DNA from: a virus | Length of the DNA: 37,521 nucleotides | Strand: one strand, 5' to 3' | Virus record (IMG/VR): IMGVR_UViG_3300042868_005261 | Span: 1-37,521 of that record | Shown here: piece after piece, positions 1-29,660 of the stretch | Position numbering within the stretch: position 1 is the stretch's first letter | Layout: every line of letters begins with the position of its first letter | Translations under genes and position numbers: made by a program | Notes under the pieces: generated by a model | Database searches by the model: none | What the model was told of the DNA's origin: nothing | Seen by the model: the letters and a program-made list of their open reading frames with translations, nothing else

Positions 1-1646
1 CCACTTACACCACTAGTTCCAGAACTCCCTGAAGAACCACTAGAACCAGAAGATCCACTAGTTGCAGATGTACCACTTGTTCCAGAAGTACCACTTGGTG
101 GATTGAATGTTGTTTGAGCGTATGAGTAGTTACTCGTACCCTCTGTATAAAAAGTTATATTATGATTACTACCACCGCCAGTAAATTCAGCATAAATTTG
201 ACAATAAAGCCTATCTGTTGCGTTTAATGCGGTTTGACCTAAAAACAAATCTGTAAAAAACTCTCTGATAACATTTGTTGACATAGACTCGGTATCTAGG
301 TTTGTAGTACCTAGAAGTGTTGAAACACCACCCGTTGTGTATTTATAAAGCTCTACATCTACTGCTACGTTTCTATTTGTATTAATAGAAAAGTGCGTTA
401 CCCAAGCCCAGTTGCCAGCAGGTATGCTTGTTAGATTAGGCACACCTGAATCAGTTGCAAAAGTTGCAATTAATGTTCTTGTGTTTGGCGCTACATTTGT
501 AACTACAGTTTGCTCTGCTCCTACTACTGCTGTAGGTGACCATTGCTTATATGTCGGAGTACCAAAAGCAGTATTTGTATTTAAAGATTGATTTAGATAG
601 TATACAAGACCACCTGCAACACCATTAATACCATTTATACCTGAAGTACCTGCCGTTCCGCTAGTACCAGAAGTTCCTGTTGTTCCAGAAGTACCTGTTG
701 TACCGCTTGAACCAGAAGTGCCTGATGTACCTGTTGTCCCACTTGTACCACTTGAACCAGACGTTCCTGAAGTTCCAGACGTACCCGAAGTACCACCAGT
801 TCCATCTGTGCCACTAGTTCCACTAGAGCCAGAAGTACCCGAAGTACCTGACGTACCGGTTGTTCCAGAAGTGCCAGAACTTCCGCTAGTTCCACTACTT
901 CCACTTGTTCCAGTTGTACCAGAAGAACCAGAAGAACCAGTGGTTCCTGAAGTTCCGCTTGTACCACCTGTGCCATCTGTACCAGAACTACCACTAGTCG
1001 CAGAAGTGCCTGAAGTACCTGACGTACCGCTTGTACCTCCTGTACCATCTGTTCCTGATGTACCACTTGTGCCTGATGTGCCACTCGTAGCGCTTGAACC
1101 AGAAGTACCTGATGTTCCAGATGTGCCTGATGTACCATCTGTACCTGACGTACCTGATGTACCTGTAGTGCCTGAAGTTCCATTTGTACCTGAAGTACCT
1201 GATGTAGCCGAAGTACCGGAGGTTCCAGAAGTACCTGTCGTACCTGAAGTTCCAGTTGTTCCTGATGTACCCGAAGTACCAGAGGTAGACGAGCTACCCG
1301 AAGATCCACTTGTTCCAGCTGTTGCTGAAGTTCCACTAGTGCCAGAAGTACCGCCAGAACCATCGGTTCCCGAAGTACCAGATGTACCAGTAGTTCCTGA
1401 AGTACCAGTTGTACCACTTGTTCCGGCAGTGGCTGAAGTTCCGGATGTACCAGAAGTTCCAGTTGTACCCGAAGTACCACTACTACCAGCAGTACCTGAT
1501 GTACCACTAGTGCCACTTGTTCCACTGCTTCCAGATGTACCTATAGTTCCTGAAGTATCGGCAAATACAATACCATCTACTGCAACTAATATACCATTTT
1601 CATCTCTAAGCTTTAAGTCACCGCTGATTAAATTCTGTATTGCCAC
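1..1646 (-). CDS. Collagen-like tail fibre protein (partial, runs off left edge)
   Basis: I read this frame by hand. It opens with GTG at 1646-1644, three codons after an in-frame TAA and 12 bp after the upstream gene's stop, and stays open to base 1 (at least 548 residues). A non-repetitive N-terminus of about 35 residues (start VAIQNLISGDLKL) is followed by roughly 300 residues of collagen-type Gly-X-Y triplets, mostly GTS, with GSS, GTT, GTA and GTD variants. Next comes a beta-rich domain of about 175 residues (plus-strand 105-630, includes WVTHFSINTNRN). A second GTS/GSS stalk continues past the window edge. Phage collagen-like proteins are usually trimeric fibre stalks that project receptor-binding or adhesive domains. 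Its place at the end of the late block, after two other probable fibre genes, fits that role. The receptor-binding tip is probably outside the window. Confidence 0.8.
   Translation of the reverse strand, partial: MAIQNLISGDLKLRDENGILVAVDGIVFADTSGTIGTSGSSGTSGTSGTSGTAGSSGTSGTTGTSGTSGTSATAGTSGTTGTSGTTGTSGTSGTDGSGGTSGTSGTSATAGTSGSSGSSSTSGTSGTSGTTGTSGTTGTSGTSGTSATSGTSGTNGTSGTTGTSGTSGTDGTSGTSGTSGTSGSSATSGTSGTSGTSGTDGTGGTSGTSGTSGTSATSGSSGTDGTGGTSGTSGTTGSSGSSGTTGTSGSSGTSGSSGTSGTTGTSGTSGTSGSSGTSGTDGTGGTSGTSGTSGTSGSSGTSGTTGTSGTSGSSGTTGTSGTTGTSGTSGTAGTSGINGINGVAGGLVYYLNQSLNTNTAFGTPTYKQWSPTAVVGAEQTVVTNVAPNTRTLIATFATDSGVPNLTSIPAGNWAWVTHFSINTNRNVAVDVELYKYTTGGVSTLLGTTNLDTESMSTNVIREFFTDLFLGQTALNATDRLYCQIYAEFTGGGSNHNITFYTEGTSNYSYAQTTFNPPSGTSGTSGTSATSGSSGSSGSSGSSGTSGVS
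640..1550 (-). repeat. Collagen-coding Gly-X-Y repeat tract
   Basis: About 100 nine-base units encode Gly-X-Y, dominated by Gly-Thr-Ser, with third-base variation so adjacent units are rarely identical. Near plus-strand 1290 a Gly is replaced by Ser (GSSGSSSTSG), breaking the triplet phase chemistry locally. Positions 3-104 hold the start of a second stalk in the same frame. The tract opens long artefactual frames on both strands. Confidence 0.9.
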
Positions 1647-2188: not shown

Positions 2189-2707
2189 TTAGAAAAATAA
2201 AGCTTGGTTAGTAGATATGTATGTTGCTCTGTTTAATGCAGCTTGTGCTGAATAAATATCAGAAGCAAATGTAATTGCCTGATCTGCACTATCAATTTCA
2301 ACTCGTAATACTAGTTTCGTTTGGTACCAGTTGGTGCTTGCAGACAAATTAGAATTTGCAACTTGACTTTCAGTTAAGCCGTAATAAAAGGTTTCATTAT
2401 ATGCCGTAAATGCGAATGAAATTGTTTTAGATGTAACAACAGTATTTCCAGCTGTTAACCACTGTACCGTAATACTTAATGCAGAATCTTGAGATAATAC
2501 ATCTAAACTAATACTTGTATTTGCTAAAGGCCATTCAATATAAGTAGTTAGTGTACCAGCTGGCACCAACATAGTACCATTTGCTTGCAATAGATATATT
2601 CTACGCTTTGCTATAGTTACATCAGAACCAGTACTTGTATCTGTTAATGTAATAACTGATGGGGTGCCACTAAACTGACTGGCCGTAAAATTTGGAGTTA
2701 AAGGCAT
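2189..2707 (-). CDS. Beta-rich virion protein, first gene of the fibre unit
   Basis: This 172-aa protein is rich in Thr, Ser and alternating hydrophobic residues, as in beta-sandwich virion proteins (for example SVITLTDTSTGSDVTIAKRR near the N-terminus). The C-terminus (ATYISTNQALFF) is more helical. No enzymatic motif and no signal peptide are visible. The ATG at 2707 follows a 53-bp gap holding a TATATTTG box, so it likely begins its own transcription unit with the next two genes. It is probably a tail or fibre adaptor protein, inferred from context only. Confidence 0.45.
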   Translation of the reverse strand: MPLTPNFTASQFSGTPSVITLTDTSTGSDVTIAKRRIYLLQANGTMLVPAGTLTTYIEWPLANTSISLDVLSQDSALSITVQWLTAGNTVVTSKTISFAFTAYNETFYYGLTESQVANSNLSASTNWYQTKLVLRVEIDSADQAITFASDIYSAQAALNRATYISTNQALFF

Positions 2708-2760: not shown

Positions 2761-5700
2761 TTATTCATCATCGTCCTTACCTATACCTCGCCTTGCCCTA
2801 TCTTGTCTTAAATCGTATTGAACATCTGGATCTTGTGCCTGTTTTTGACCAAATTTCTCTATTTTTTTTACACTAGTTGCATATTTTTGTAACCTACTAA
2901 GCTCGTCAGCAAGTTCCTGCTTGGTGGCAACATTTGGACCTTCTCCTTCAACTATCTTTTCAATTAATTTACCTTTTTCATTAGGAACAGAAAAACCATT
3001 TTTATGTATTTCTTCAATAAGTCCTTTTAAAAATGCATCTCTTTCTTTAACAAATTCATCAAACTCGCTTTTTGTTATTCTCCTACCTTTATTAATTTTA
3101 TCTTTATAATTGAAAATGCTATTTCTATCCATTGAAGATGATGATACATTATTATCTAATAATGATTTTAAATCTCTTTCATCAAAGGTTTTTTCATTTT
3201 GAACTTTTAATCCATAAAAAGTAGGAATAGCGTATAAAATAGCCTCAGCACCAGAAGCTTGATAAGACTTTCTAAAATCTTGCAAAAACAATGGTTCAAA
3301 TAAATCACTTGTTAATTCTTTTTTAATATCGTATGGTTTACCAGAAAAACCTTTACCGGTAGCAATATCAGCAGCAATACCAACTAAAGGATTTGCTTTA
3401 CCTCTAATAAATTTATAGGACTCCCTCACTACATCAACTTTTTTAGGCTCACCATCAGCACCAATTTTTTTGGCAGGCCCTAATGCACCCCCAGATAAAG
3501 TACTAGCGATAGAAGAACCTAACATTACCAATTGTTTAACTACAGAACCGTATGGTCCCAATAGATTAATTGACCAACCTGTTTTAGTATTTTTTATTTG
3601 ACCAAATGTAACGCTTTCTGGATCTGCATCTACTTCTACATCATCTTGCAAAGATGCAGCTGCCATAATTAAGAATACAGTTGATAAACTTCTTACCGTT
3701 GCTTGAACGGCTTTTTCTCTACCTTCTTTGTTCATAGCACTGTAATATCCCATTGGTCTACCTTTGCTATCTTTTTTACCCCATAACTTATTAGAAATAA
3801 GGTCACTCAACCCTAATTTATTTAATGTTGATGCCAACAATTTAGGTGACCACAATACAGCACTTTGAATAGATTTAGAGCTTTTAAACATAGTTTCACC
3901 TCTACCCGTAAGGTTATTTACCTTACTTGCCAAGTCCTGATAGTCCTTTAAACTATTTTCAATTGTTTTACCTTGGTCCATTAATTCTTGCGAACCCTGT
4001 ATAAAAAGAGAAAGTCTTATTTCATTACTAAATCCAGAAAACAATCTTTCAAATGGAGCTGTTATGTATTTATCAGCACCAACTCTCTCTAATAAATTTC
4101 TTTTACCAAATGACTCTTCTTTTAATTTAGTCTTAAAACCTTTTGGATCTAATATATCAAGCCCAGATTTTTCAATCATATTCCATAAAGGCTTATTATC
4201 ATATATTTCAAGTAATCTTCTTCTAAGTGCAGCCTCACTCGCAAATGCCATTTTTTGGAATTTAAGAGCTTGTAGAGCTGGTTTTTCTTTAGTTATATTA
4301 ATCTTATAAGCAAAAGGATTTAATGCAGATCTTCCTTTTTGTTTCCTAATTTTTATTCCCCATGACTCTGGATCTAGCATAACAGAGGAATTTTGAACGA
4401 ATACAACAGAGTTATCTATACCAGACTTTAAAGCCATAATGGTATTTAAAAATTCTTTACCTAATTGCTTAGCCTTACCAAGCTTACCTTCTTTTTCTAA
4501 TTTATCTTTTTCTGCGGCCATTAAAAACTGATGCTTCATCTCATCAATCTTATTTAATCCGTCTAAATATTTATTGTATGAATAAGGATATTTCTTTTTT
4601 AATTCAGGATTTTCTATAAATGATTCAGGTCTTGGAGTAGGCTCAAATTCCTTATTTTCTATCTTTCTTTTTATTTCATTAGCCTTAGCTTCATTTCTAG
4701 CAATTAATGACTTTAACTTAGATTCATCATAATAACCAGATTCCTTTCTTAACTCTCTAAGTTCTTTTTCTTTCGCTGATATTTCAGCATTTTTCTCAAT
4801 CTGCTTCTTCTCGGTCAACTCTTGTTTTGGACCATATTTTAAATCATATATTGCGGAAGCCAATTTAGCTTCTTTGTTTATATTTGCTAGATTCGCTTTT
4901 GCCTCATTCAAGGCTTTCTTTTCTTTCTCTTTATATTTACCAGCAATAATATCTACAATATCCTTCTTTGTTATCCCTTCAATTCCATCTTTCAATAAGT
5001 CATAGATATTATTAACAACATCATCTAATTTACTAACCCCATCTTCAGCATAAATTTTAACTAATTTTGCTACATCAGGAGATATAGCATATAATTGAGC
5101 AGAAAATGGTAATGGAACTGCTGTTAATCCCTCAGATCCTTTTGATGCCCTATTCCATTTTTCTTTTATGCTTTTAAATATATCTTCCCTTTCTTTTTTA
5201 TAATCTCTTTTAGGAGCCTTTTCTTTCTTTTCTTTTTTTACTTCAGTATTAATTTTAGCCATTTCTTGCTCGGCTAACATCTTTGCATTTAATTCTTCTA
5301 GCTCCTGCTTTTCTTTTTTTAGTTTTTCAACCTCTTTTTGAATCTTTTCATAATCCTCAATAACCTTTTTCATTTGGTTATCAGTCAACTCATCTACACC
5401 ATTAGCTTCTCTTACTACTGTAACATAATCACTAAGTGTTTGTAATTGTTCTAATGGAGCATAAGCAGTGCCCTGCAATGCTCTAAAATCTCTACCCATA
5501 GTAGCAGCAGAAATCAATTTAGCTTCAGTGAATCTAGCTAAATCCCTTTGTATTTTTTTATTGAACGGATCTTTAACTAATGCGTTATCTAAGGTAGCTG
5601 CATAAATTTTTAATATTTCAGACTCAACAGCGCTTGTTCCTTGTCCCTGTTCCATTCTCTGAATCAAAGCATCAAAATCATATCCATTTTCTATTTGCTC

Positions 5701-6075
5701 AGCAGCTTGTTGCTTAATTTCAGCATCAGTAATAACCTTACCTTCTACTACCGGTAATCCATTTTCTAATCTTCTTTGCTCAATTTCTGCTTTGGTAATA
5801 CCTCTTATGGCTTCTTCATTGCTTTGAGCTTCTTCGGTAGCTTCAGCCCTTTGCTGGCTTGATCGTATTCCTTCACTACTTTCGGTGATATTTTTCCTTG
5901 CTCCAGTAGGACGTGAAACTTTTTCCTCTGCGCTTCGCTCTTGTATGGCATCTTGGATAGGTTTTAAGTTAGATAAATCTTGGTTTAAAAGATAGTCTTT
6001 AAGCTCCGGTTCGGTCATTTCTTTGAACTCGCCGGGCTTAACTTCAATAATATATTTACAAGGGTTTTTTGCCAT
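2761..6075 (-). CDS. Giant internal virion protein (polyvalent-type, 1104 aa)
   Basis: The N-terminal 35 residues (MAKNPCKYIIEVKPGEFKEM, then ELKDYLLNQDL) are followed by a very long Lys/Glu-rich, coiled-coil-prone region to about residue 510. A region with few charges follows and includes a hydrophobic helix at about 795-810 (STVFLIMAAASL). The C-terminus is acidic and charged (ARRGIGKDDDE). Size, helicity, one membrane-capable segment and position among structural genes resemble the large internal or ejected proteins of short-tailed phages, sometimes annotated as large polyvalent proteins. No lysozyme, protease or ADP-ribosyltransferase motif was recognised. Its ATG overlaps the stop of the ferritin gene by 1 base, so the two are translationally coupled. 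Confidence 0.5.
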   Translation of the reverse strand: MAKNPCKYIIEVKPGEFKEMTEPELKDYLLNQDLSNLKPIQDAIQERSAEEKVSRPTGARKNITESSEGIRSSQQRAEATEEAQSNEEAIRGITKAEIEQRRLENGLPVVEGKVITDAEIKQQAAEQIENGYDFDALIQRMEQGQGTSAVESEILKIYAATLDNALVKDPFNKKIQRDLARFTEAKLISAATMGRDFRALQGTAYAPLEQLQTLSDYVTVVREANGVDELTDNQMKKVIEDYEKIQKEVEKLKKEKQELEELNAKMLAEQEMAKINTEVKKEKKEKAPKRDYKKEREDIFKSIKEKWNRASKGSEGLTAVPLPFSAQLYAISPDVAKLVKIYAEDGVSKLDDVVNNIYDLLKDGIEGITKKDIVDIIAGKYKEKEKKALNEAKANLANINKEAKLASAIYDLKYGPKQELTEKKQIEKNAEISAKEKELRELRKESGYYDESKLKSLIARNEAKANEIKRKIENKEFEPTPRPESFIENPELKKKYPYSYNKYLDGLNKIDEMKHQFLMAAEKDKLEKEGKLGKAKQLGKEFLNTIMALKSGIDNSVVFVQNSSVMLDPESWGIKIRKQKGRSALNPFAYKINITKEKPALQALKFQKMAFASEAALRRRLLEIYDNKPLWNMIEKSGLDILDPKGFKTKLKEESFGKRNLLERVGADKYITAPFERLFSGFSNEIRLSLFIQGSQELMDQGKTIENSLKDYQDLASKVNNLTGRGETMFKSSKSIQSAVLWSPKLLASTLNKLGLSDLISNKLWGKKDSKGRPMGYYSAMNKEGREKAVQATVRSLSTVFLIMAAASLQDDVEVDADPESVTFGQIKNTKTGWSINLLGPYGSVVKQLVMLGSSIASTLSGGALGPAKKIGADGEPKKVDVVRESYKFIRGKANPLVGIAADIATGKGFSGKPYDIKKELTSDLFEPLFLQDFRKSYQASGAEAILYAIPTFYGLKVQNEKTFDERDLKSLLDNNVSSSSMDRNSIFNYKDKINKGRRITKSEFDEFVKERDAFLKGLIEEIHKNGFSVPNEKGKLIEKIVEGEGPNVATKQELADELSRLQKYATSVKKIEKFGQKQAQDPDVQYDLRQDRARRGIGKDDDE

Positions 6076-6572
6076 TATAAGTCAGATATATGTTCGTCAA
6101 ATTCAAGGATTTCTTTAGTTTGCTCTGCTATTTTATATTTAGCAAGTAAATCACCATAATGGCCTACCGCTTTTCTTTGAATTTCAATGAATTGTAAAAT
6201 GTACTGAGCTACAGAAACATCTTCATCTGCCGCCTTCTCATAAAAATCTTTATATTGATTATATACGTCCAATTCAGTATTGTAGCCAATCTCTAACGCA
6301 TCACCAATATCCGTTACTTTATCAGTAACTGCATCAATTTTTGGAAGGTCAGCGCAGTCACCCATATCATTCATGAACTCAACGTGCATTTGATAATGGG
6401 TTAATTCCTCAGCACTTTCTGCTAAGAAGTATTTTTGGCTACCAAATAGACCTAACCTCTGTAATTGATTAGCTAGGCTTTTCCATAGGTTAGATTGATA
6501 CAGTTCTATATATACCGCATCTTGCATGCCCTTTTTCATTGCCGGGCTTAATAATGATTTTAGGTTGGACAT
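6075..6572 (-). CDS. Ferritin (non-haem, four-helix bundle)
   Basis: This 165-aa protein has the length and helix layout of bacterial ferritin. Glu23, Glu56, His59 and Glu100 have the same spacing as E. coli FtnA Glu17, Glu50, His53 and Glu94. The second-helix signature is AEELTHYQMHVEFMNDMGD, where E-E-x-x-H is the diiron motif. Gln132 lines up with FtnA Gln127, but the residue matching FtnA Glu130 is Ala135, so the third iron site looks altered. Ferritins oxidise Fe(II) at a diiron centre and store ferric mineral in a 24-mer shell. The gene is embedded in the virion operon: its start overlaps the 919-aa gene by 13 bases and its stop overlaps the 1104-aa gene by 1. Whether it forms cages in the host cell or joins the virion cannot be told from sequence. 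Confidence 0.85.
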   Translation of the reverse strand: MSNLKSLLSPAMKKGMQDAVYIELYQSNLWKSLANQLQRLGLFGSQKYFLAESAEELTHYQMHVEFMNDMGDCADLPKIDAVTDKVTDIGDALEIGYNTELDVYNQYKDFYEKAADEDVSVAQYILQFIEIQRKAVGHYGDLLAKYKIAEQTKEILEFDEHISDL

Positions 6573-9319
6573 ATTTTCTCTATTTTAAGTGCTTTTATTA
6601 ATTCGTCAAATTTACTATTTATTATTTGTCTTTTTTCATTTCTGGTCAAGTCTTTATAGGCTTCTGCTAATTTTTCCTCCTTTGAAGGCTCTTTCTCTAT
6701 TTTAGGTTCTTCAGCCTTTTTACCCTCTTCTTTTACTTCTTTACCAGATTTAATAGGTACTTCCTTTTCAACTTGGGTAATTATCTCCTCAAACTCAGCA
6801 TCAGAAAACTCACCTACTTGTTCTGCTCTTAACTGAATAGCATAATCAAGAGCTTTTTCTGGATCTTTAAAATCAATAGTAATTAATCTATCCGGAACTA
6901 AACCAGTTTCTTTATCTACTTTTCGTAATTGAAATGTTATAGATTTAATGTTTCCATTATTATCTAATGTAATTGGATTAGGAACTAATTCAGTTGAAGG
7001 CAATGTAACGTCCCTGTCTGTAATCTGTTTTTCTCCTATTGACGCGACTTTGTTTCCATCTGAATTATATAAAACATATTTACCACCTTCTGATTTTATA
7101 TATCCATTTACCGTTTTGCCATCTGGGGATTTGATTGTTGCTTTGCTTCCTTCAAATTGCCCGATTGATTTGCTGACTTCTTTTTTTCTAACATCAACTC
7201 CAGCACGCGTAACTGCTCCTTTTTGGGTAATTGTGCTAACCTCAGTCTTTGATTGATTTTCATAAGTTAATATTTTATCTATTATTGGATTTATTAAATT
7301 ATTTAAAGATTCATTATTTGTTTTAGATTTTAAATCTTCTAGTACCTTAGCTGCATCATACAAATCATTTTCATTAACTATTTCGTTATTTTTTATTTTT
7401 TCAATTACAGGTTCAAATTTTTCTCTACCTTCAACTACATACGGTAAAACATCTTCTATTTTTTCAGTTACTTTAACTTCTTTAGGAGCAATTTCAGCAA
7501 CTGATAATTCAGTTACAGGTATTCCTGTATCACTACCTTCTACAAAAGCATATTTACCATCTTCAGATATAGATTTTATTTTTTTAGGTTCAACAAACTG
7601 ATCTGCTCCCTGTGATGTCCATTGAACGCTATCACCAATTTTAACTTCAGTAGGAGTAACTTCTTCTGTAACTATCTCTTCTGCTGGTGTAATCTTTCCA
7701 TCATCAAAAGATGTTTCTTCATCTTTTTGAGATTTCTTTGATAAATTATCATAATAAGAGATTGTTTCACTTCTCTCTTTATTCAATTCATTTAATTTAT
7801 CATTATATAATCTATCTCTTTTATCTAATGAATTTATATATTCATCTATATCAGCTAACTTTGTTTCTTTTTCATTTTCAATCTCTAAACTAGATGGCTT
7901 TGATATATTTTCATCAACCATTGATTTAAAAACTTGTGCATCATTTTCAGAAATAACACCTTCTTGAACACTTTGATTTATCTCATTAACAATATTATCT
8001 ATATCTTCTTGAGTTTTAGCATTCTTTACTTCATCTTCTATATGTTGCTGAACATTTTTTGTTCTTGAGCTAATAGATCCTACGGTACCACCAAAAATAC
8101 CACCCATTGCAGCAGCGTTTAAATACCTAGATGCTGCTGTATTTTTTAATTCTTCTTCGTCAAATATTTCACTACCTTCTAATTGATTTGCAGCTAACTT
8201 CATTAAATCCATAGCACCTTCCTGAGTAGCTTCAGTAGCTCCTTCAACTAATGCAGATTTAGCACCAGCTTTTACAGTATTTTTTAATGCTGTTTTAGTA
8301 AGCATTTGAGTTGCTTTATTAGCAACAGCTTTTTCAAATTGTTCTGCTGTAACTTTTACTCCTTTTTTAGCTAATTCACCTGCTGTTTCTTTTAATATCT
8401 TAGATGTAACATACTTAGTAACTGTACCGCTTTTAAGTATGTTATCCATACCAAGCTTTTCTAAAACACCAGCTACAATAGCGCCACCAAAACCAAATGC
8501 AGTTCTAGTTGTTTCGCTCATGTATTTAGCTTCTGGAATATTATCTAGTGTAGACAATGCATCATCATATCCTTGAATAGCAAAACTACTACCTGCCGTT
8601 GGAGCAGCAATTGCAATATCAGCAAGCATTGATGGTAAAACAGCTCCAAGACCTTTTAAATCATCTAATCCTATACCATTTGTAATATCAAATCCTTCGG
8701 CCAAACCTTGCTCATATTCTCTTGAAGAAGCTGATGTTCTAGCCTTACCAATAAAACTCTTAACTTTATCTGCTATTTCTTTTTCTCTTTGTGCTTCATA
8801 ATTAATACCAGTAACACTAGAAGCCGCTTTATCTACAGATTCCTGTATCATTGAAACAGGGCTAGTATCAAATTTTTGAGCTAACCTAGCTGCACCACCT
8901 GCTAATCTTTCAGCACTTGCTACTACGTTATTCCACATAGCACCTAAGTAGCTATTGTTATTATTCTTATCTTTTATTACAGCCTCTTTCAGTGTCGTTT
9001 TTGGAACGGACGCACTAATATCTTTAAAAATTTCTCCAGAAGCCATTTTTTGGCCCTGCTGTAAAAAGTTAGGTTCGTTTGGTAATCTTGATGGTATACC
9101 CGAAGATGGTAAATTCCCGGCTTTTTTTTTTAAACCAAATGTATTCGCAAAAGAATCATAAGTATCTGGTACGTCAAATTGGTTTTCTTTTAAATATGAA
9201 TAATATTTAGAAGCCTTGTTGGAATCAGATAATGTATTCTTAAATGAATTAAAATCAGGAGCTACATCAGCTCCATTAGCTTTTAAATACTTATAATATT
9301 GTTCAAATTTATCTGGCAT
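6560..9319 (-). CDS. Large internal virion protein with N-terminal tandem repeat (919 aa)
   Basis: Residues 5-33 and 34-65 form a tandem repeat (FEQYYKYLKANGADV / ASKYYSYLKENQFDV, then FNSFKNTLSD / YDSFANTFGL). Hydrophobic, Ala/Gly-rich stretches follow at about 215-250 and 270-290 (TAFGFGGAIVAGVLEKLG) and near 395-410 (AAAMGGIFGG). A highly acidic coiled-coil-like region then runs to about 520. The C-terminal third is beta-rich and charged, including a short SH3-like stretch near 575-615 (IGDSVQWTSQGADQFVEP). I recognise no catalytic motif. The layout fits a core or ejection protein that inserts in membranes during DNA delivery. It overlaps the ferritin gene by 13 bases. Confidence 0.5.
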   Translation of the reverse strand: MPDKFEQYYKYLKANGADVAPDFNSFKNTLSDSNKASKYYSYLKENQFDVPDTYDSFANTFGLKKKAGNLPSSGIPSRLPNEPNFLQQGQKMASGEIFKDISASVPKTTLKEAVIKDKNNNNSYLGAMWNNVVASAERLAGGAARLAQKFDTSPVSMIQESVDKAASSVTGINYEAQREKEIADKVKSFIGKARTSASSREYEQGLAEGFDITNGIGLDDLKGLGAVLPSMLADIAIAAPTAGSSFAIQGYDDALSTLDNIPEAKYMSETTRTAFGFGGAIVAGVLEKLGMDNILKSGTVTKYVTSKILKETAGELAKKGVKVTAEQFEKAVANKATQMLTKTALKNTVKAGAKSALVEGATEATQEGAMDLMKLAANQLEGSEIFDEEELKNTAASRYLNAAAMGGIFGGTVGSISSRTKNVQQHIEDEVKNAKTQEDIDNIVNEINQSVQEGVISENDAQVFKSMVDENISKPSSLEIENEKETKLADIDEYINSLDKRDRLYNDKLNELNKERSETISYYDNLSKKSQKDEETSFDDGKITPAEEIVTEEVTPTEVKIGDSVQWTSQGADQFVEPKKIKSISEDGKYAFVEGSDTGIPVTELSVAEIAPKEVKVTEKIEDVLPYVVEGREKFEPVIEKIKNNEIVNENDLYDAAKVLEDLKSKTNNESLNNLINPIIDKILTYENQSKTEVSTITQKGAVTRAGVDVRKKEVSKSIGQFEGSKATIKSPDGKTVNGYIKSEGGKYVLYNSDGNKVASIGEKQITDRDVTLPSTELVPNPITLDNNGNIKSITFQLRKVDKETGLVPDRLITIDFKDPEKALDYAIQLRAEQVGEFSDAEFEEIITQVEKEVPIKSGKEVKEEGKKAEEPKIEKEPSKEEKLAEAYKDLTRNEKRQIINSKFDELIKALKIEKICPT

Positions 9320-9337
9320 TATTAATAATTTTATTTT

Positions 9338-10690
9338 TTATTCTTCCCAAATAATACCTGAGCTACCTTTACGTCCGGGTTTAGGTTTCGGTTTAGGCTT
9401 AGGACCTCCTCCATAATCAGGCTGTTCTCCTCTTCTTGGCTCTGTATTATATTTCAATTGATAATTATACATTCCTCTTCTATCAATAACACCTGTTTTT
9501 TCATTTACAAATTTGACAGGAGTACCATTTTCAAATGTAACATCAAAATCTTGTACACCTTTTGCAAGTGGACCTAAAACACTAAATATTTCTGATGGTA
9601 AATTTTGCTTTTGTATAAACATCTTACCATTAAAAAGAGTACCGTCTTTGTCAAAAGCTTGACCATTTTTTATTGAACGTCCATCAACAGTTGTAACATC
9701 TGGTATTACATCAAAAAGATTTGCATTTTCTTCACTTGATCCCGTATTTACAGCAGCTCTATTTAAAGCAGATCTTATGTCTTGCCTTCTTTGCCCTTCA
9801 GTAAAATACCATTCTTTTGTAAAATCATATCCAGTTTTATCTTCTCTTTTTGGTTGTTTAGTAGCTAGACCATAAGCAACTGCTAAATCTGCTGGAGTCT
9901 TTATATCTACGCCAAAATATTCCTTATATTTAGGATTCAATTGATTAACAAAATTCTTGTCTTTAAATAAATTACCATATTGTTCTTGTGTACCTAAATT
10001 ATCTCTAAAATAACCTCTAACTCTTTGAGAATAAGTATTAGCAACTTCTGGAGTAATTGATTCAACTTTAACTTCCTTAACACGACCAGTTGGTTTGTTA
10101 TTAAAAACTTGCTCTTCAACTTCAATTTTACTAGGCAAATTTATGCCTTTCCATGTTTTATCTGAAAATACTAAATCATCATGAGGATCGTATATATCTA
10201 CCTGCATCATATCTGGAGGTGTATAACCAGCTCCTACAGGCAACATTGATTTATTTAATACATCTAAATAGTTATCAGAAACATGTTTACCAGATTTGAT
10301 AGCCTGATTAATATAATCTTTAAATGCTTTTCTTTCAGCTGTAGCTTGCTTCCCTTGCTCAATATAACCTTGCAAATCTTTAAATCCAGCCATTAATGTT
10401 GACTGAGCATCATAACCATACTTTGAAGGGTTATTAATTGCTTGTTTATTTTTAATGCCGTATTCTTGAACTTCTCTTAATTTCTTAGCAAAAATATCAA
10501 GCTCTGCTTTAGATAAACCAGCAGGATTTATACTTTTCTCCCAATCTTTAAAATATTTATCTGTAGCTTCAGCTTGCGCGCGCTGCTTTTGGATAAGACC
10601 AATAGCTAATTGAGTTGGCTTAGATGTAAAATCTATTGCCACATTGCCTCCTCTATATGGGTTAATCCCCAGTAATCCTGTACTTGCCAT
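9338..10690 (-). CDS. Virion-associated protein of unknown function (450 aa)
   Basis: The N-terminus MASTGLLGINPYRGG is followed by a helical, Lys/Gln-rich region to about residue 130, then mixed alpha/beta sequence. The tail is basic and proline-rich (KPKPKPKPGRKGSSG) and ends in IIWEE. There is no signal peptide or recognised domain. It follows the gp14-like gene by 1 base and precedes the 919-aa gene by 18 bases, so it belongs to the internal-protein cluster. The Pro-Lys tail could be an unstructured DNA- or membrane-binding extension (inference). Confidence 0.45.
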   Translation of the reverse strand: MASTGLLGINPYRGGNVAIDFTSKPTQLAIGLIQKQRAQAEATDKYFKDWEKSINPAGLSKAELDIFAKKLREVQEYGIKNKQAINNPSKYGYDAQSTLMAGFKDLQGYIEQGKQATAERKAFKDYINQAIKSGKHVSDNYLDVLNKSMLPVGAGYTPPDMMQVDIYDPHDDLVFSDKTWKGINLPSKIEVEEQVFNNKPTGRVKEVKVESITPEVANTYSQRVRGYFRDNLGTQEQYGNLFKDKNFVNQLNPKYKEYFGVDIKTPADLAVAYGLATKQPKREDKTGYDFTKEWYFTEGQRRQDIRSALNRAAVNTGSSEENANLFDVIPDVTTVDGRSIKNGQAFDKDGTLFNGKMFIQKQNLPSEIFSVLGPLAKGVQDFDVTFENGTPVKFVNEKTGVIDRRGMYNYQLKYNTEPRRGEQPDYGGGPKPKPKPKPGRKGSSGIIWEE

Positions 10691-12513: not shown

Positions 12514-15500
12514 TTAACAAGATGTTTCATTTGTTAATGTACCATTACCTCCTGTAACTAACCAGTTATTTACTCCATTAGAATAATAATTATTAGGCAC
12601 AACAGTAGTTAGTGCAGAATCTTGATAAACTACCACCCCATTAGTTAACACTGAAGATGCTGAATAATACGTTAACGGTCCAACAGAAAAATCAACACAA
12701 GCTAAAGCGCCGCTACTTGAATCCACTCCTAATAAGAAAGAATAAAAAGAAGCAGTTGTTGTTGTTGTTGTTGTCGGTGCAGCGGTTGTCGTAGTACTTG
12801 TTGTAGTACTTGTTGTAGTACTAGTCGTAGTAGTAGTCGGAGCAGCTGTTGTAGTTGTTGAGGTAGTCGTTGTACTAGTCGTTGTAGTCGGAGCAGCTGT
12901 TGTAGTTGTCGTAGTACTAGTGGTAGTTGTAGTTGTAGTTGTTGGCGCAGGCGAACAAGGAGCACAAGCACTTGTGACAGTTGCAACAGGATTACCATTT
13001 ATAACTGAAACGCTAACATATTGACCGCCAAAACTAACAAACCACAGACCTGTTGGTGCAGCTGAGAATATTGCACCCGTAAAGGTAGTGCAGCTACAGA
13101 AATCAGGATTATCACCTGTTACAGTTCCTGATGCTACAAATCCACAAGCATCTGTAGAATCTCCACCAAAACCTATTAAAAATGATAGGGTTGTTGTTGT
13201 AGTTGTTGTTGGTGCAGCAGTTGTTGTTGTGGTAGGAGCAGCAGTCGTTGTCGTTGTTGGTGCTGCGGTTGTCGTTGTACTTGTAGTTGTAGTAGTCGGC
13301 GCAGCAGTTGTGGTCGTTGTTGTTGTGGTAGGACCTGACGTTGTTGTCGTTGTAGAAGCAGGTAAATACCTGTTAATTTCCTCCATTGCAATAATATACT
13401 TATTAGTATTTGCATCAAATACACCATAAATACAAGGATTACCAGTATAAACTTGACCAGTTGCAGGAACTCCATTATTTAAATCTTGTCTATATGCGGC
13501 TAATGTAGCCACAAAGAAAGCATTTGTATTATTAGTAATACTGATTGGAGTTATTCCATCTTGAGCCAATCTACAAACCACACCCCTAAAATTATCTACA
13601 AAGTAGTCTGCAAAGTTATTCCATGCAAGACTTGTAGCGGCATCACCAATTCCATAATCACCAGCATAATACTGAATCTTATTAATTAATTGATTGCTAT
13701 TAGCTTGTAGTGGGTTCCCAGTTACATCTTTTACAATCTGAGTTAAAATAGGAACATTACCTACTTTAAAGTTCTGGTAAACCTTTAAATATCTATCTCT
13801 TACATGCAATCTCAATACATCACCAAAAGACCTATCGTATTCATCAAAATCTTCATAAATAAATCTATTTGTAGCATTAAGATTAGTATTTGATTGATAT
13901 GCCTGTCCAAATCTAATTAATGTAGGAAAATATGTTTGAATAGCATTTTCATCTATTACTGAAGCTCTACCATTGCTATTTGTAATCAAATTATATGTAT
14001 CATTAAAACTACTTTCTATAATTTCAATTTCAGAACCTTTTAAAACTTGAAAATCAAATGTCATTGGTTCAACAATTATATTATTAGAACCAATACTGTC
14101 ATTTGTAGATTTAGCTACTATATATACTTTACCTGTTGGTGGTACACTAATTCTTTTGTCAATTGTAAATGTTGTAGGCGTATTTTGAACTATGTCATTT
14201 ACTTCTATAGGAAGTAATGAAACCGTAAATTTAGAAGCGAATGGTATTAAATTCGTACAAATAAGCGCATACACTGAAAATGTAGAACCACCATCAGATG
14301 ACATGATAAAAGAGCCTTTTATTGATACAACCTTATCAGTTCCTAAAACGCTTGATTTATTATAGAAAAAATAACCAGTGTCACTCCAAACTGGATAACC
14401 TGCTCCAGTTAAAGCAACATTAACATTTGGTTGTGTTTGTATTCTATATGATATATTATCAATAGTTGTATTAACAGTTATTGGGAATGATACACTTCTT
14501 GATACAAAAGCACCGGTTACTCCAATAGTAAATACTCCAGACCTGTATTCGTATTTATCACTATATGGTACATTTCTAAGTCTATAAAATAAATCTCCAT
14601 TATTAATAGCAAGAGTAGCTCCGCCGTTAGGGAGTTTTGTTAAACCAAAATGATATCTTGTTGGCAAACCTACATCACCAATACCATATTGCTTTCCAAA
14701 CTCATAGAAAAATCTTTGAGTTGAAGCAGCATTATTTGTGTAATTATATAATAATATTTCGTAGTGCTGAAAATTTTCTGTACCCGGAAATTGAAATGTT
14801 GCATCAATGTCATTAGTTGGGTATCTTAATTTTAAGAAATTACCAACTGCTGTGTTAGTATTGTTATTATTTGTTGTAATATATTCAATTGTAGAAACAG
14901 TACCAACTATTTCATAATCAAATTGACTAGTAATATCTTGAGGAGCGCCAGCAACATCATATCTTCTTATAAATTTAATTCTATCGCCCTCTGTATAATT
15001 ATAAGAAACAACATTTTGTGTTGAACTAATTTGTTCATTATATTCTTGGATATTACCAATACCTATGTAAATAAATTTTGTACTATCTACTCCAATAGGC
15101 AATGATGTATAAGCTGATTCACTTACCCAACAAAGACGCTTATTGTAAGTTGTGTTATTTGATCTTACTACTTGATAATAAGAAGCATATAGTGGAGGTC
15201 TATTTAATATAGATAAATTAACCAAAGGGAAATCATCAGCAAGAACTCTTGATGGAGTATTAATTACGGCGTTTTCTGACGTTTGGGTTCCAATAGTCCT
15301 ACCCTGTGCATCAAAATATTGAATACCATATTGGTAACCACCATTCCAAACATTTGCAAATCTTGTATTATCATTATCCAATGCAGGAATAGTAGCAAAA
15401 GCTGTTGATGTCAATACAAATCCACCTGCTAAAGACATAGTAAGCTTATTACCAACTAATGAAACTTGAGTATATCCTTCTAAAACCATAGCGGCAGATA

Positions 15501-17612: not shown

Positions 17613-17885
17613 TTAATTATTTGAAAAATAAGCTAATATATCGTTATGACGAATCAAAAAATGCAATTCATTATCTACAATAACAGGTTCCCCTGCACCT
17701 TTGATATGAAAAATGCAATCATCTTTTTTTGCTTCCATTTTTACTTTAGCAGTTCCGCGACCAACAGAAATTACTTTAGCCTTACTACTTCTTTCCCTAA
17801 ATCCTTCAGGGATAAATAATCCTCCTTCTGTAATTTCATCAGCCATAAATGGTTTTACTAAAACAAAATCTCTAATTGGTTTCAT
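17613..17885 (-). CDS. GroES-like co-chaperonin
   Basis: The 90-aa length matches Cpn10. The N-terminus MKPIRDFVLVKP corresponds to the GroES start (IRPLHDRVIVK). Residues 17-35 form the mobile loop, with GGLFIP at 21-26 in place of GGIVL/GGIIIP, the part that docks onto GroEL. KVISVGRG at 38-45 and the C-terminal HNDILAYF, equivalent to ESDILAIV, complete the fold. Phage co-chaperonins such as T4 gp31 replace host GroES so that GroEL can fold the capsid protein. The gene lies inside the connector cluster, two genes after the capsid terminator. Only 2 bases separate it from the next gene. Confidence 0.85.
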   Translation of the reverse strand: MKPIRDFVLVKPFMADEITEGGLFIPEGFRERSSKAKVISVGRGTAKVKMEAKKDDCIFHIKGAGEPVIVDNELHFLIRHNDILAYFSNN

Positions 17886-23587: not shown

Positions 23588-26005
23588 TTATTCTTGTGTT
23601 ACCATTTCTTCTTGTAATTGCATTTCTTCTTGAGGTGGCATTGCACCTTCTTCCATTTGCTGCTGTTCCATTTGTTGTTGTTCAGCCATCCTTTGTTGTT
23701 CTAAAGCTTGCTGCTGCTGCTCATTTTGAACCGATATAGGAACAATTACATTCTGCAACATACTTGCTACTAACGTCTGAAGCTCAGAAGGAACAGGAAT
23801 ATTTGCTTTTGCTAAATCAAATACTCCTTGTAAAATAATTTCTTTTTCTTTCGTTAAAGCTTTTTGTTGCTCAATAGAACTATCTGCTTGCATTTTTGCT
23901 TGTATACTAGCCTGCTGAGCTTCTGCATTTTGCTGAGAATTAATCATAGCCTTTTCTTGCTCGGCTTTTATATATCTTTTTTGAGCTTGTCTAAAATACA
24001 ATTCACCCAATTCTACATTTTCTTTAGCCATTCTCATTGCCTTAAATGGATCTAAATAAATAACCAATTGAGGATTAGATGCAACAGCATTATTCATCAT
24101 TGCCTGTAATGTTGCAACCTGAACATCATCAGGCATCATCTTTATAGAAGCAACAAAATTTCTATCTTTTACATCTTCCTCATTTAATAAATCTCTATAT
24201 TTTTTAGAACCATGAGTAACACTTTTATTAATTAAACATGCCACTTTTTTGGCTGTTTCTTCCATAACATAAATATATGCATCATACATATACTCTGTTG
24301 CATTATTAGCAAGAACTCTTGAAGCTTCAATATTAGAAGCAGCAACTCTTGGTTGCGCAGCCTGATTCATTAAATTAGGATCTTCACCTAACTCATCTTT
24401 TAGAACTTGATAATGGAATTGATATAACTGAATTAACGCCTGTAATTGAGGTGAAAAACCTGTATTAGCCAACTCAGTAATAGGAACCGGAATACGATTA
24501 CCTTCAGCATCTCTACCGCGATAATAAAGCTTACCTGTTTGTTCCCATATTTTTTGAACGTCAATTGGCTTAACAGAATCACCTAGACCTAAGTCAAGTT
24601 CCTGAAGCGCATCAACATCAATTGCTGCACCTGCTGGTACCATTTTAGCTACAAGTTGTTGTATCTTTAATCTAGCTAAAATCATTTGCTCAATAGGCTC
24701 TTCAATTTTTTCGGGTACAGCTACGTTACGCATGTCATAAGGATCATACATATAAAAGCTATAAGAAAACTCAGCGTTACCTATTTCTTTTGGATCTTGT
24801 GGACGGATCATGTTTTTCTTGATACCCCAATGAAGCATTGTTTGCGTTACTGGGCAATAAACTCCATGATAAATGTTCCACTTCTTTTCCTCTAAATATT
24901 CTTGATTTTCATCTAACTTCTCTGGCTTACCTTTCTTAATAATAGTACTACCGTTCTTTTTTGTTTTAGTTACAGTATAACCATCAGAATCAAGTGTACG
25001 AATTTCAAAATTAACTAAATCAATATTCCACTCATCGTAAGGTCTTAGCCAAGAAACATTCCAATCTTGCATCCACTTAATCTTATCTGTAAGTTGATAC
25101 TCTTTTGATGATTGAGCTAATTGGAAAATATCTTCTTCAGAAAGTATTCCTCCTGCTGCTTTACTATACCTTGCTCTTATTTCACTAATTTTCATTGAAA
25201 GGACATGTCCTCTATAAGTAGTATCTCTAAAATCAGGAAAATCAGAATATGAATAAATTGCGTTTTCAGGTCTAATCCATTGAACATGAACTTCTCCTTC
25301 TTCATCCATCCAAGTATATGTACACACTAATCCAACTTCTGCTGAATCATGTAACAGTCTTTGTTTTAAAACATCATTCCAACCATTAGCTTCAAAAACA
25401 TTGTTACAACCAATGCTGTACAATATTTCTTCAGGTAAATGATTAAACTCCATTATCCATTGATCTAACTCATCCCTATCTTCTGCAACAAATTTATCTT
25501 TTGGAATAATCTCAACACCAGACTCTTGCTGAAGCTGAGCAAGTGTTTCTTTATTTTTGTATAAAAATTCAGCTTCATCTGCTTGTCTTTGTTTTAGCAT
25601 TGCAGATGCGGAATCATTAGCAGAAACTGTGATTTTTTCTTTGCGACTCATCCATGAACCAACTAATCTAGCAACAATAGTATTACCAATGATAATTGAT
25701 TTCCAGTTAATATTTACAAAATTGGCTTTAGCATTCATTTCCAATCGGTCCATAAACACGCTCATGTCTACCTTACCGTTAGCAATTTGTCTGTTTTTTC
25801 TAAATCTATTGTTTCTTAACCAAAAATAAGTTTGGTTACCATAAATTGTAGAATAGATATTTTGGGCAACATTTTTACCGTATAAATAATCTTTTTTAGA
25901 CGCTATATCAGTAGTAATTTGGAAGTCTTTAAGTGACTGCCCACTACTATTTGCCGAGGATATGTATAAAGGACTCTCTGCCAATTTGAATATATTTTGT
26001 GTCAA
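23588..26005 (-). CDS. Portal protein
   Basis: This 805-aa protein lies directly after TerL. Size, the helical start (NIYSTIYGNQTYFWLRNNRF), the central beta/alpha body (GLVCTYTWMDEEGEVHVQW; YSYSDFPDFRD) and the long helical C-terminal region ending in a Gln/Glu/Met-rich tail match the large portals of crAss-like and related Bacteroidetes phages. The only upstream in-frame start is TTG at 26005; the next candidate is TTG at 25984 (before AESPLYISS), with no ATG until about residue 80. The 26005 TTG is itself the last three bases of a TATATTTG promoter-like box. Confidence 0.75.
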   Translation of the reverse strand: MTQNIFKLAESPLYISSANSSGQSLKDFQITTDIASKKDYLYGKNVAQNIYSTIYGNQTYFWLRNNRFRKNRQIANGKVDMSVFMDRLEMNAKANFVNINWKSIIIGNTIVARLVGSWMSRKEKITVSANDSASAMLKQRQADEAEFLYKNKETLAQLQQESGVEIIPKDKFVAEDRDELDQWIMEFNHLPEEILYSIGCNNVFEANGWNDVLKQRLLHDSAEVGLVCTYTWMDEEGEVHVQWIRPENAIYSYSDFPDFRDTTYRGHVLSMKISEIRARYSKAAGGILSEEDIFQLAQSSKEYQLTDKIKWMQDWNVSWLRPYDEWNIDLVNFEIRTLDSDGYTVTKTKKNGSTIIKKGKPEKLDENQEYLEEKKWNIYHGVYCPVTQTMLHWGIKKNMIRPQDPKEIGNAEFSYSFYMYDPYDMRNVAVPEKIEEPIEQMILARLKIQQLVAKMVPAGAAIDVDALQELDLGLGDSVKPIDVQKIWEQTGKLYYRGRDAEGNRIPVPITELANTGFSPQLQALIQLYQFHYQVLKDELGEDPNLMNQAAQPRVAASNIEASRVLANNATEYMYDAYIYVMEETAKKVACLINKSVTHGSKKYRDLLNEEDVKDRNFVASIKMMPDDVQVATLQAMMNNAVASNPQLVIYLDPFKAMRMAKENVELGELYFRQAQKRYIKAEQEKAMINSQQNAEAQQASIQAKMQADSSIEQQKALTKEKEIILQGVFDLAKANIPVPSELQTLVASMLQNVIVPISVQNEQQQQALEQQRMAEQQQMEQQQMEEGAMPPQEEMQLQEEMVTQE

Positions 26006-26041: not shown

Positions 26042-28090
26042 TTAATTAAAAGAAGGAACGTAGCTTTTTACCAATGGTTCTCTCTTTGGCTGTTTTATAA
26101 TAGGCTCCATTAAACAAACTATAAGCATCAAAAATGACACAGTTATGTCATAGTCTGTTCTATTATTTGGATCAAATTTTTTGGCATCTTCTAGTAAATT
26201 CTCAAAATCTATAGAATTTATATGAGATTCAAAGTACATAATACCAACATCCGCTTGTTTTGTTAAACTAAATGGAGTAGTAGGGAATCCCTTGTATCTT
26301 TCTGCTGTTTCTCTTTTTGATGGATCTATTGTAGAAATAGGGTAAGAACCTAAATACCCAACTCTGCCTCTTTCCCTAAAATAAGATAAATAATCATCAC
26401 TATTATGCTCATACCAAGCTTGATAACCATAATATTCAGCAGCCAAAAGTACCTGTTCGTGCAATGTTTCTTTGATATGCGGCCTTCCATACAAATGCCC
26501 TATAGCCTTACCAGTATTAGATGGATCTAACAAATTGTACCTTCTGCCAATCCAAGCTGATGCCTTAGATCCATATTTACCTCCTTGACTATTACTATAT
26601 CCGTCAATTGCGATAGCGCCATCATCTGTCCTTCCGGGCTTTTTTGTTCTAATATCAAACACATGGCTGTTCTCTTTTCCAACAGGTGGGAATTGAGTAA
26701 TAACCCAATGAAAATCTTCTTCTTTTTCATTGATATTTCTCCATTTGACAGTTTGGTCAATATCTCTGTAAAATACAATATGACGCTTTAATACAGGGTT
26801 TTCTTTTAAATAAGACTCTCTTGCGCTAATATTCATTACATTAAATATACAGCCGTCAGCATCTGTACTAAATGCCTCATCAATCGTTAGTGGCTCTTTT
26901 CTAATACGAGCCGATAATGCTCTTGGGTTATTTTTAACTGTTTCCCTATCTGCTTCAATTTGCAATAAAGTTTTTTCTTCATCTGGAAATCCAAAATCAT
27001 CAAAGTTTCTTGTTCTTTTAGCAGACATAAAAAATCTATACAAACCACTTGATGTAGCTCCATTTTGTTGTCTTTTCTCCTGATTACTTTCTTCCCATAA
27101 CAACTTAAATGCATCCTGAACTCCATCTTTTTCAGATGTAAGCTTTTCTACAGTAGTAGTATAAAGAGCTTTACCAATGATTTTACCTTCATCATCTAAT
27201 AAGCAATAACGAACAACCTCGTGTCTATCATATACGTTTACTTCAGTTGTTTTACCACACTCGTCCGCTACATATCTATGCAACTTCTGTCCATCATAAG
27301 CTACTGTATCAGCAGACTGATGGTCAATAACTGAACCTAATTCATCTTTATCTACATTCTCCTCTGCCTTCTTTCCTCTTACGTTTGTTTTCTGAAATCT
27401 CATTTCAGACTTTGGATTAACCCCCAAAGACATATCATATTCAGGTCTAAAAAACTTAGGAAGCCTCCTAAATGGATTCACAACTGTCTTAGCAAAGAAC
27501 TTCTTAGCATCAGAACCTGTTTTAGATTGAATACCACCATTTGTCATTTTAGTTCTGGTAGTATATTCTGTAACAAACAAACCAGCCACAAAAGACTTAC
27601 CAAAACGTCTTTTTGTAACCTCAAGCATGCCCATACAAAGCGGATCCTGTATGCAATAATCCATAAAATAGAACTTTTCTAGGTCTGGCATCCTGAATTT
27701 AGGATATCCAATATCTATACTCCACCATTGCAAATACAAATAGTGCATGCCAGTTAAATAAGTCGGCTTGCCATTATTCATGTACCAAAAACCATTTAAT
27801 CTTCTATCCCACTCTTGCTTCTTAAATTCTTCCAGCTTCTCATCATAGAACTCCGGAGCCTCATCTTTTTTCTTTTTATCATACTCATCCCATTCTTTCA
27901 TAGTATCTGCATACCAAGATGGTAGCGGTATTCTTTTCCAGTATTGCTCTGATTGAACATCTGACCTTTGATAAACACCTCTAAACTCAACCTGCTTAGT
28001 CAATATATTGAATACATATCCTTCAGGTGGAAGATTACAATCTAACCCCTGAATGTGAATCGTGGAACCTTTTTCAATTTTTTCGTACAT
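26042..28090 (-). CDS. terL: Terminase large subunit (DNA-packaging ATPase/nuclease)
   Basis: In this 682-aa protein a deviant Walker A is at 158-166 (VTKRRFGKS), Walker B at 271-277 (HRYVADE, with catalytic Glu277), and a coupling-type motif at 311-316 (TTTVEK). The C-terminal nuclease has candidate acidic residues Asp496 (AIAIDGYS), Glu561 (WYEHNSDD) and Asp648 (YDITVSFLM), as in RNase H-fold terminase nucleases. It packages DNA into the prohead through the portal, which is encoded next. The N-terminal 150 residues are an extension with WYMNNGKPTYLTGMHYLYLQWW, shared with terminases of crAss-like phages as I recall. The stop is followed by a 36-base AT-rich gap before the portal. Confidence 0.9.
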   Translation of the reverse strand: MYEKIEKGSTIHIQGLDCNLPPEGYVFNILTKQVEFRGVYQRSDVQSEQYWKRIPLPSWYADTMKEWDEYDKKKKDEAPEFYDEKLEEFKKQEWDRRLNGFWYMNNGKPTYLTGMHYLYLQWWSIDIGYPKFRMPDLEKFYFMDYCIQDPLCMGMLEVTKRRFGKSFVAGLFVTEYTTRTKMTNGGIQSKTGSDAKKFFAKTVVNPFRRLPKFFRPEYDMSLGVNPKSEMRFQKTNVRGKKAEENVDKDELGSVIDHQSADTVAYDGQKLHRYVADECGKTTEVNVYDRHEVVRYCLLDDEGKIIGKALYTTTVEKLTSEKDGVQDAFKLLWEESNQEKRQQNGATSSGLYRFFMSAKRTRNFDDFGFPDEEKTLLQIEADRETVKNNPRALSARIRKEPLTIDEAFSTDADGCIFNVMNISARESYLKENPVLKRHIVFYRDIDQTVKWRNINEKEEDFHWVITQFPPVGKENSHVFDIRTKKPGRTDDGAIAIDGYSNSQGGKYGSKASAWIGRRYNLLDPSNTGKAIGHLYGRPHIKETLHEQVLLAAEYYGYQAWYEHNSDDYLSYFRERGRVGYLGSYPISTIDPSKRETAERYKGFPTTPFSLTKQADVGIMYFESHINSIDFENLLEDAKKFDPNNRTDYDITVSFLMLIVCLMEPIIKQPKREPLVKSYVPSFN

Positions 28091-29282: not shown

Positions 29283-29660
29283 ATGGCAAATCATTTATCA
29301 GTTTATGTTTATCGTAGAAATCAATACGATTTAACAAATCCTAACGGTACTGCTGCAACTAGCGGTGTTTTATTTTCTTTACCAACAGCCGACTTACAGG
29401 TTCAACCATCTACAGTTGTAGCAAATGGTGTACAGATGAACTCTTTAATTCTCATCTATCCTAGTGGTTTAAATCAACCAGCTGAAAAATTATACAGCAA
29501 TGCAACTGTTGCTGGATTAATTGCAGCTATTAACGGTAGTGGTATTGCTACAACAACAACTACGACTACAACAACATCTACCACAACAACAACCACAGCG
29601 GCTCCAACCACAACAACAACCACAGCGGCTCCAACCACAACAACAACCACAGCAGCTTAA
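29283..29660 (+). CDS. Small protein with Thr-rich tail (paralogue pair, member 1)
   Basis: This 125-aa protein has a folded part of about 90 residues (VYVYRRNQYDLTNPNGT; VVANGVQMNSLILIYPSGLNQ) followed by a Thr-rich tail of TTTTTTAAP units. The folded part aligns with the next gene along its whole length (YRRNQYDL-NPNGT-ATSG; VANGV-MNS; P-GLNQ). The tail has the same composition as the linkers of the 1440-aa tail protein. No signal peptide or membrane helix is present. The gene stands in an isolated rightward unit with its own promoter and terminator between two leftward blocks. A virion-surface or decoration role is inferred from the shared tail. Confidence 0.5.
   Translation: MANHLSVYVYRRNQYDLTNPNGTAATSGVLFSLPTADLQVQPSTVVANGVQMNSLILIYPSGLNQPAEKLYSNATVAGLIAAINGSGIATTTTTTTTTSTTTTTTAAPTTTTTTAAPTTTTTTAA
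29581..29657 (+). repeat. 27-bp tandem repeat encoding TTTTTTAAP-type units
   Basis: Two identical 27-bp units (29581-29607, 29608-29634) and a third, 23-bp copy with one G-to-A change run directly into the stop codon. Near-identity at DNA level contrasts with the codon-shuffled Thr tracts at 12754-13354, implying recent duplication here. Confidence 0.9.

Follow-up and report, generated by a model that had tools for sequence, protein, structure and literature searches.

The ferritin gene and its neighbours

The DNA analysed is a single virus record of 37,521 bases (IMGVR_UViG_3300042868_005261), the whole of which is referred to below as the window. On its minus strand, at 6572..6075, lies a gene with an ATG start for a protein of 165 residues, recognised as a ferritin from its match to Pfam PF00210, its AlphaFold2 model, its matches to known structures and its conservation in 73 of 73 viral rows. 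An earlier note had placed the gene correctly at 6075–6572, leaving the strand unstated. The overlaps that it reported with large genes on both sides are present: the frame shares 13 nt with an upstream ORF of 919 aa (6560..9319, minus) and 1 nt with a downstream ORF of 1104 aa (2761..6075, minus). We regard these giants as the first and second products of one split gene slot, the former on account of some 90 N-terminal residues common to relatives and the latter from the relatives' layouts. In relatives with and without the ferritin, the slot is bordered upstream by a 450-aa gene (9338..10690, minus) and downstream by a 172-aa gene (2189..2707, minus).

The giants had been described as internal-virion-type proteins. 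Their placement among virion genes stands; the type itself follows from position, with no family match. The window's two giants gave no Pfam match over the cutoff, no PHROG match of note and no match in phage records, and among six giants of relatives scanned against Pfam, one exceeded the cutoff, with DUF7178, a domain of unknown function. The family of the 1104-aa protein had no profile match to phi38:1 gp101 or Elemovirus gp18, and the model of this protein is poor (pLDDT 58.7). The style of its C-terminus had suggested polyvalent-protein domains, an idea to which Pfam gave no support. Four named relatives, Elemovirus, phi38:1, Panino and MW202828, each have a single giant gene (1691 to 3859 aa) following the tail genes, in a slot equated with that of the window from gene order; it is annotated as 'structural' in Elemovirus and phi38:1 only. 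The phi38:1 record assigns 'structural protein' by similarity to 'phi18:1_gp101', though phi18:1 is given as 39.2 kb; gp101 is not mentioned in the part of PMC13288928 that was searched. Across loci L143–L162, the giant protein between the 450-aa and 172-aa genes is a mosaic in which stretches of 60–90% identity alternate with unmatched ones.

Other genes of the virion module could be assigned from profiles. The portal gene (23588..26005, minus; PHROG 6547, 1.6e-42) has a relative that adjoins the ferritin in a second lineage, and the gene for the large terminase subunit (26042..28090, minus; PHROG 6681, 6.5e-73) was used to find relatives and to build a tree. In addition, a 1440-aa protein matches a PHROG family for virion structure, and a 181-aa protein matches crAss-type muzzle profiles slightly under their Pfam cutoffs.

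Fold and family of the protein

The protein matches PF00210 (Ferritin) with E=4e-12 and 46.7 bits against a cutoff of 24.5, and its best match among solved chains is the ferritin of T. maritima (E=3.7e-7). The AlphaFold model, a single chain built from 22 aligned rows, has a mean pLDDT of 95 and consists of five helices (10–39, 43–69, 89–117, 119–151 and 155–164), that is, a four-helix bundle followed by a short fifth helix. A chance match is ruled out by the Pfam score and this confident five-helix model. Superposition on E. coli FtnA (1eum_A), which is tied with the other top structural matches, gave a Z of 23.1 and an rmsd of 1.3 for 158 residues at 16% identity, and for the T. maritima ferritin the TM score is about 0.9. 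The proposal of a ferritin bundle is therefore upheld for one predicted chain. The viral protein resembles these two ferritins in its five-helix fold (Z about 23), its length and its diiron residues, but it is only 16–24% identical to them, carries Trp30 and is encoded in a phage virion module. The vertebrate ferritin H chain has a similar fold (Z about 22) at about 21–22% identity, as does BFVD A0A8D9C9X5, a 'putative bacterial non-heme ferritin' of an uncultured marine phage (TM 0.86, 20% identity). PHROG 16594, a family of unknown function, matches the viral ferritin at 8.8e-7.

Other branches of the superfamily fit less well. The haem ligand of bacterioferritin is Met52; at that position, beside the bridging glutamate, 52 of 52 rows have a leucine (Leu57), and bacterioferritin was rejected. 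In Dps proteins, the B–C loop contains an additional short helix, and there is no fifth helix; the model is unlike Dps in both respects, having no predicted helix at residues 70–88 and having one at 155–164. The rubrerythrin profile PF02915 was likewise over its cutoff (29.5 bits against 22.8); rubrerythrin nonetheless carries a rubredoxin-like C-terminal domain, and the viral protein has no such part, finishing in its helix 155–164. The score against the NCBIfam non-heme ferritin equivalogs (PRK10304) was far under the cutoff, at 23.5 bits against 178. We conclude that the protein is, as judged from its sequence and model, a real non-heme ferritin with a predicted H-chain-type site.

The diiron site

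Six residues, E23, E52, E56, H59, E100 and Q132, are invariant in the 73 viral rows compared, which reach down to about 57% identity. The earlier note had listed E23, E56, H59 and E100 in a protein of ferritin length, and they are at the positions that it gave. With Q132, they are the counterparts of E17, E50, H53, E94 and Q127, which we take to be the diiron residues of FtnA. The predicted diiron site is thus intact throughout, and the invariance suggests that it is probably in use. Over nine near pairs, the pooled dN/dS of the ferritin is 0.063, and over 298 pairs the median is 0.123 (range 0.008–0.386); the gene is under strong purifying selection. The constant place of the gene among particle genes could also be accounted for if the ferritin fold had been recruited for structure or assembly and had no metal chemistry, but five metal-site residues identical in every row, down to that level of identity, make this very improbable.

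The residue three past Q132 is alanine (A135) in 71 rows and serine in two. The earlier note read this alanine as a sign of changed chemistry, a view that we abandon on comparison with vertebrate H chains: Gln132 and Ala135 reproduce what we take to be their pattern, Gln141 and Ala144 in the human protein, so that a Gln/Ala pair following the site residues of the fourth helix is presumably common to both. The third iron site of FtnA is formed, we assume, by glutamates at 126, 129 and 130, which the viral protein lacks; the equivalent positions are I131 (73 of 73), K134 (67 of 73, with glutamate in three) and A135. Ala135 therefore appears to mark the absence of the FtnA third site, not an unheard-of chemistry. 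The true oddity of the viral family is, from the alignment, an apparently lineage-specific tryptophan, Trp30, found in 70 of the 73 rows; the ferritins of T. maritima and Parabacteroides carry tyrosine there.

With two third-site residues missing (I131, A135) and tryptophan in place of the tyrosine near the site, iron oxidation may proceed at a different rate or with a different oxidant. Trp30 and the match to the rubrerythrin profile would also suit a diiron site used otherwise than for iron storage, for example in peroxide reduction as in rubrerythrin-like proteins. We think this unlikely, as the ferritin profile scores higher, the model superposes on complete ferritins, fifth helix included, with a Z of about 23, and a rubredoxin-like part is lacking.

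Distribution of the gene

Searches for a cellular or other source returned little. Genome contigs searched with the ferritin alignment held no relative, nor did three Bacteroidales genomes. Two of 395 genomes of the phylum matched the ferritin profile (best 5.8e-13), and pairwise tblastn against these two loci gave no ferritin-like alignment; the Parabacteroides ferritin is 23% identical to the viral one. Plasmid matches were weak (best E 1e-3). A phage collection yielded no convincing relative, the best E values, 0.02 and 0.008, both belonging to contig MT838721. This contig (MT838721.1, our L025) is labelled 'Bacteriophage sp.', and its ORFs resemble bacterial housekeeping genes by eye; the weak match in it is probably not viral.

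A related terminase was found in 77 contigs; those at least about 24 kb long, 47 in number, were searched for the ferritin. It is present, always as a single copy, in 25 and absent from 22. Layouts were drawn for thirteen of the latter: nine have a complete slot, occupied in each by one giant of 1921–3361 aa, and four stop within the giant; the remaining nine may be fragments. A search with PF00210 that was positive in 14 of 14 control genomes detected no ferritin in Elemovirus, phi38:1, Panino, MW202828 or the 22 ferritin-less relatives (0 of 26). Its absence from many near relatives, some of which may be fragments, implies that phages of the window's lineage can do without the ferritin. Across a tree of 35 terminases, from 26 phages that have the gene and nine that lack it, its presence changes eight times; shuffled labels give a mean of 8.2, and the observed number is no lower than that expected from shuffling.

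Positions of the gene in relatives

A profile scan of IMG/VR identified 50 ferritin loci. By their flanking ORFs, 24 resemble the window, with the ferritin splitting one giant gene, and three have it after an unsplit giant with no giant downstream. In the other 23, it lies between the portal gene and a gene of about 380 aa that precedes a gene of about 450 aa in the capsid position; this layout was drawn for 10 of the 23, the rest being placed from flanking ORFs, and the portal role comes from PHROG 6547 and the capsid and scaffold roles from gene order. Across the loci, the ferritin overlaps or closely abuts its neighbours, and all copies examined lie in the virion module. The earlier note's picture of a ferritin in a virion operon, overlapping virion-module genes, is therefore sound, whereas its bond to two giants is not a general rule.

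The portal lineage comprises 47 contigs, of which 43 extend beyond the portal gene and 38 of these 43 have the ferritin there. The five without it are L196, whose portal is 84% identical and is followed by the next gene about 10 bases away, and four with portals at 63%. In this lineage, the ferritin is close to a core gene.

Comparison of terminases with ferritins reveals a marked discrepancy. In the six of 10 portal-type contigs that hold most of the terminase, this protein is 25–26% identical to the window's over 526–557 aa, and the best stretch in each of nine portal-type records, some 210–300 residues long, is 33–35% identical; yet the 23 portal-type ferritins are 70–76% identical to that of the window. 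Conversely, in the contig with locus L022, the terminase (L064) is 97% identical and the ferritin 62% identical. The ferritin tree, of 73 viral rows from 67 distinct contigs and one outgroup on a very long branch, needs six changes of position, at least two of which are forced by strongly supported branches. A single clade for the portal position is rejected (AU p 9.6e-5, 74 rows), though it was not rejected with an earlier tree of 52 rows (AU p 0.070). Distant terminases accompanied by similar ferritins, together with the rejected clade, show that the ferritin has been exchanged between phages and between positions. We conclude that the phage ferritin is, by these comparisons, a transferable gene that stays among particle genes. 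What is new would be this placement, at the portal or in a split giant gene; we recognised no description of this family or of a ferritin at either position in those parts of the literature that were searched, which is a weak absence.

Splitting of the giant gene

L160 and L151 form the one clean occupied and empty pair, others being more distant. L160 has the ferritin and giants of 1938 and 984 aa, L151 has no ferritin and one giant of 2603 aa, and the flanking DNA of the two matches at 92% and 82%. The match breaks at 10096 in L160 and 11807 in L151 and restarts at 10918 and 11815, respectively, leaving 821 bp in the former against 7 bp in the latter. Within these 821 bp, the ferritin is preceded by the end of the upstream gene (about 62 codons) and followed by the start of the downstream gene (about 49 codons). 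In more distant pairs, the break falls at a similar point in several loci. Because the named relatives have single giants, we favour insertion of a ferritin cassette into the giant gene; alternatively, the empty form may have arisen by deletion with in-frame fusion.

The coding segments on either side of the ferritin are conserved. In the window, they are a C-terminal tail of the upstream giant (6560..6697, minus) and an N-terminal head of the downstream giant (5941..6075, minus), of about 45 codons each, defined by sequence models and dN/dS. The models, 45 aa each with 22 (tail) and 16 (head) rows after near-copies were removed from 26 loci, were searched against the 8,560 ORFs of the loci collected by then and matched only those adjoining the ferritin in split loci; there was no match in the other two ferritin positions or in 13 ferritin-less slots. 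Pooled over nine near pairs, hand-chosen neighbours in which both stretches are short, dN/dS is 0.20 for the tail, calculated without its last five codons, which are in part determined by sharing bases with the ferritin start codon, and 0.14 for the head. Ahead of the tail, the upstream giant is 23–30% identical in seven of the nine pairs. These ratios make it less likely that tail and head are mere hitchhiking DNA at the ferritin ends, and, as they are missing where the ferritin lies elsewhere, their role would seem to lie with the split rather than with the ferritin.

There is precedent for such an arrangement. In T4-like phages, homing endonucleases split genes, as with mobE in nrdA of Aeh1 and mobA in T4, and the split NrdA of Aeh1 is functional, according to the available text of PMC2988022. 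As here, a small inserted gene leads to two polypeptides; here the insert is a ferritin, and the halves are predicted proteins. The working halves of those split genes are to that extent a precedent for split giants.

Function

The reading that we rank first, and to which we would give about an even chance, is that of a working, transferable ferritin made together with virion proteins and serving virion assembly, whose cassette splits the giant in the window's lineage. Gene order and the overlaps point to likely late expression, so that the ferritin would be produced together with the particle proteins. It would bind Fe(II) at E23, E56, H59, E100 and Q132, oxidise it with O2 or H2O2 and store the ferric product, presumably keeping free iron and peroxide low while progeny DNA and particles form. 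In the window's lineage, the cassette makes two proteins of one giant from the virion module, and the tail and head peptides at the new ends probably aid cooperation between the halves.

Other phage-borne members of the ferritin superfamily belong to different families. Gratiaviridae carry Dps and Mn-catalase genes (PMC8008677) and Lactobacillus phages carry Dps (PMC6669764), taken by the authors, in the available parts of both papers, as oxidative-stress genes; the Lactobacillus gene is found close to genes of DNA metabolism, unlike the ferritin of the virion module. Another parallel, by description rather than by sequence, is gp217 of the Vi01-like phage Sajous1, which in the accessible text of PMC10892097 is ferritin-like by Phyre2, adjoins a tail completion gene group and was seen by mass spectrometry.

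Such detection in phage preparations is also what would be expected under the main rival to a ferritin acting during assembly, namely that it is a particle component, in or on the head or in a core with the split giants, taking iron-bearing or iron-oxidising cargo to the next host. Particle genes surround it at all three positions, and the gene is nearly core to the portal lineage, where it lies between the portal and the scaffold-position gene. However, the tail and head peptides are absent at the other positions and can provide no general tether, and TonB and FeoB mutants were infected as well as the wild type in the part of PMC10892097 consulted; we hold this possibility only tentatively. 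A more specific proposal, that the cassette splits an ejected giant protein, with tail and head holding the halves or the ferritin in the particle core and an iron-oxidising cage or its subunits being carried into or out of the host, seems rather doubtful to us.

Our preferred reading, a ferritin at work during assembly, would mean that phages have a family of ferritins bound up with making the virion, one that moves between distant phages while remaining among particle genes and in one lineage turns one gene into pieces. The question of iron in particles would gain a defined gene and a natural comparison of near relatives with and without it. The place of the ferritin among particle genes suggests that some viruses manage iron during assembly.

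Host and other features of the genome

The window's terminase matches 87 named records, from phages of Flavobacterium (68), Cellulophaga (15), Tenacibaculum (2) and Maribacter (1) and one spring metagenome phage, with identities of 27.7–29.4% among the 40 matches listed. These matches make a Bacteroidota host likely. L070 and L071 are two opposed terminase copies on one contig of 59,908 bases, perhaps a palindromic assembly. Within the head-tail operon of the window, 17613–17885 (minus) encodes a 90-aa protein that is GroES-like by eye, and the named relatives hold annotated genes for GroES and GroEL. At 1–1640 (minus), adjoining a 175-aa gene, a long reading frame that runs off the end of the contig has Gly-Thr-Ser and Gly-Ser-Ser repeats in a collagen-like pattern. 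Threonine-rich repeats of the TTTTTAAP type occur in two unrelated proteins, encoded at 12514–16836 (minus) and 29283–29660 (plus).
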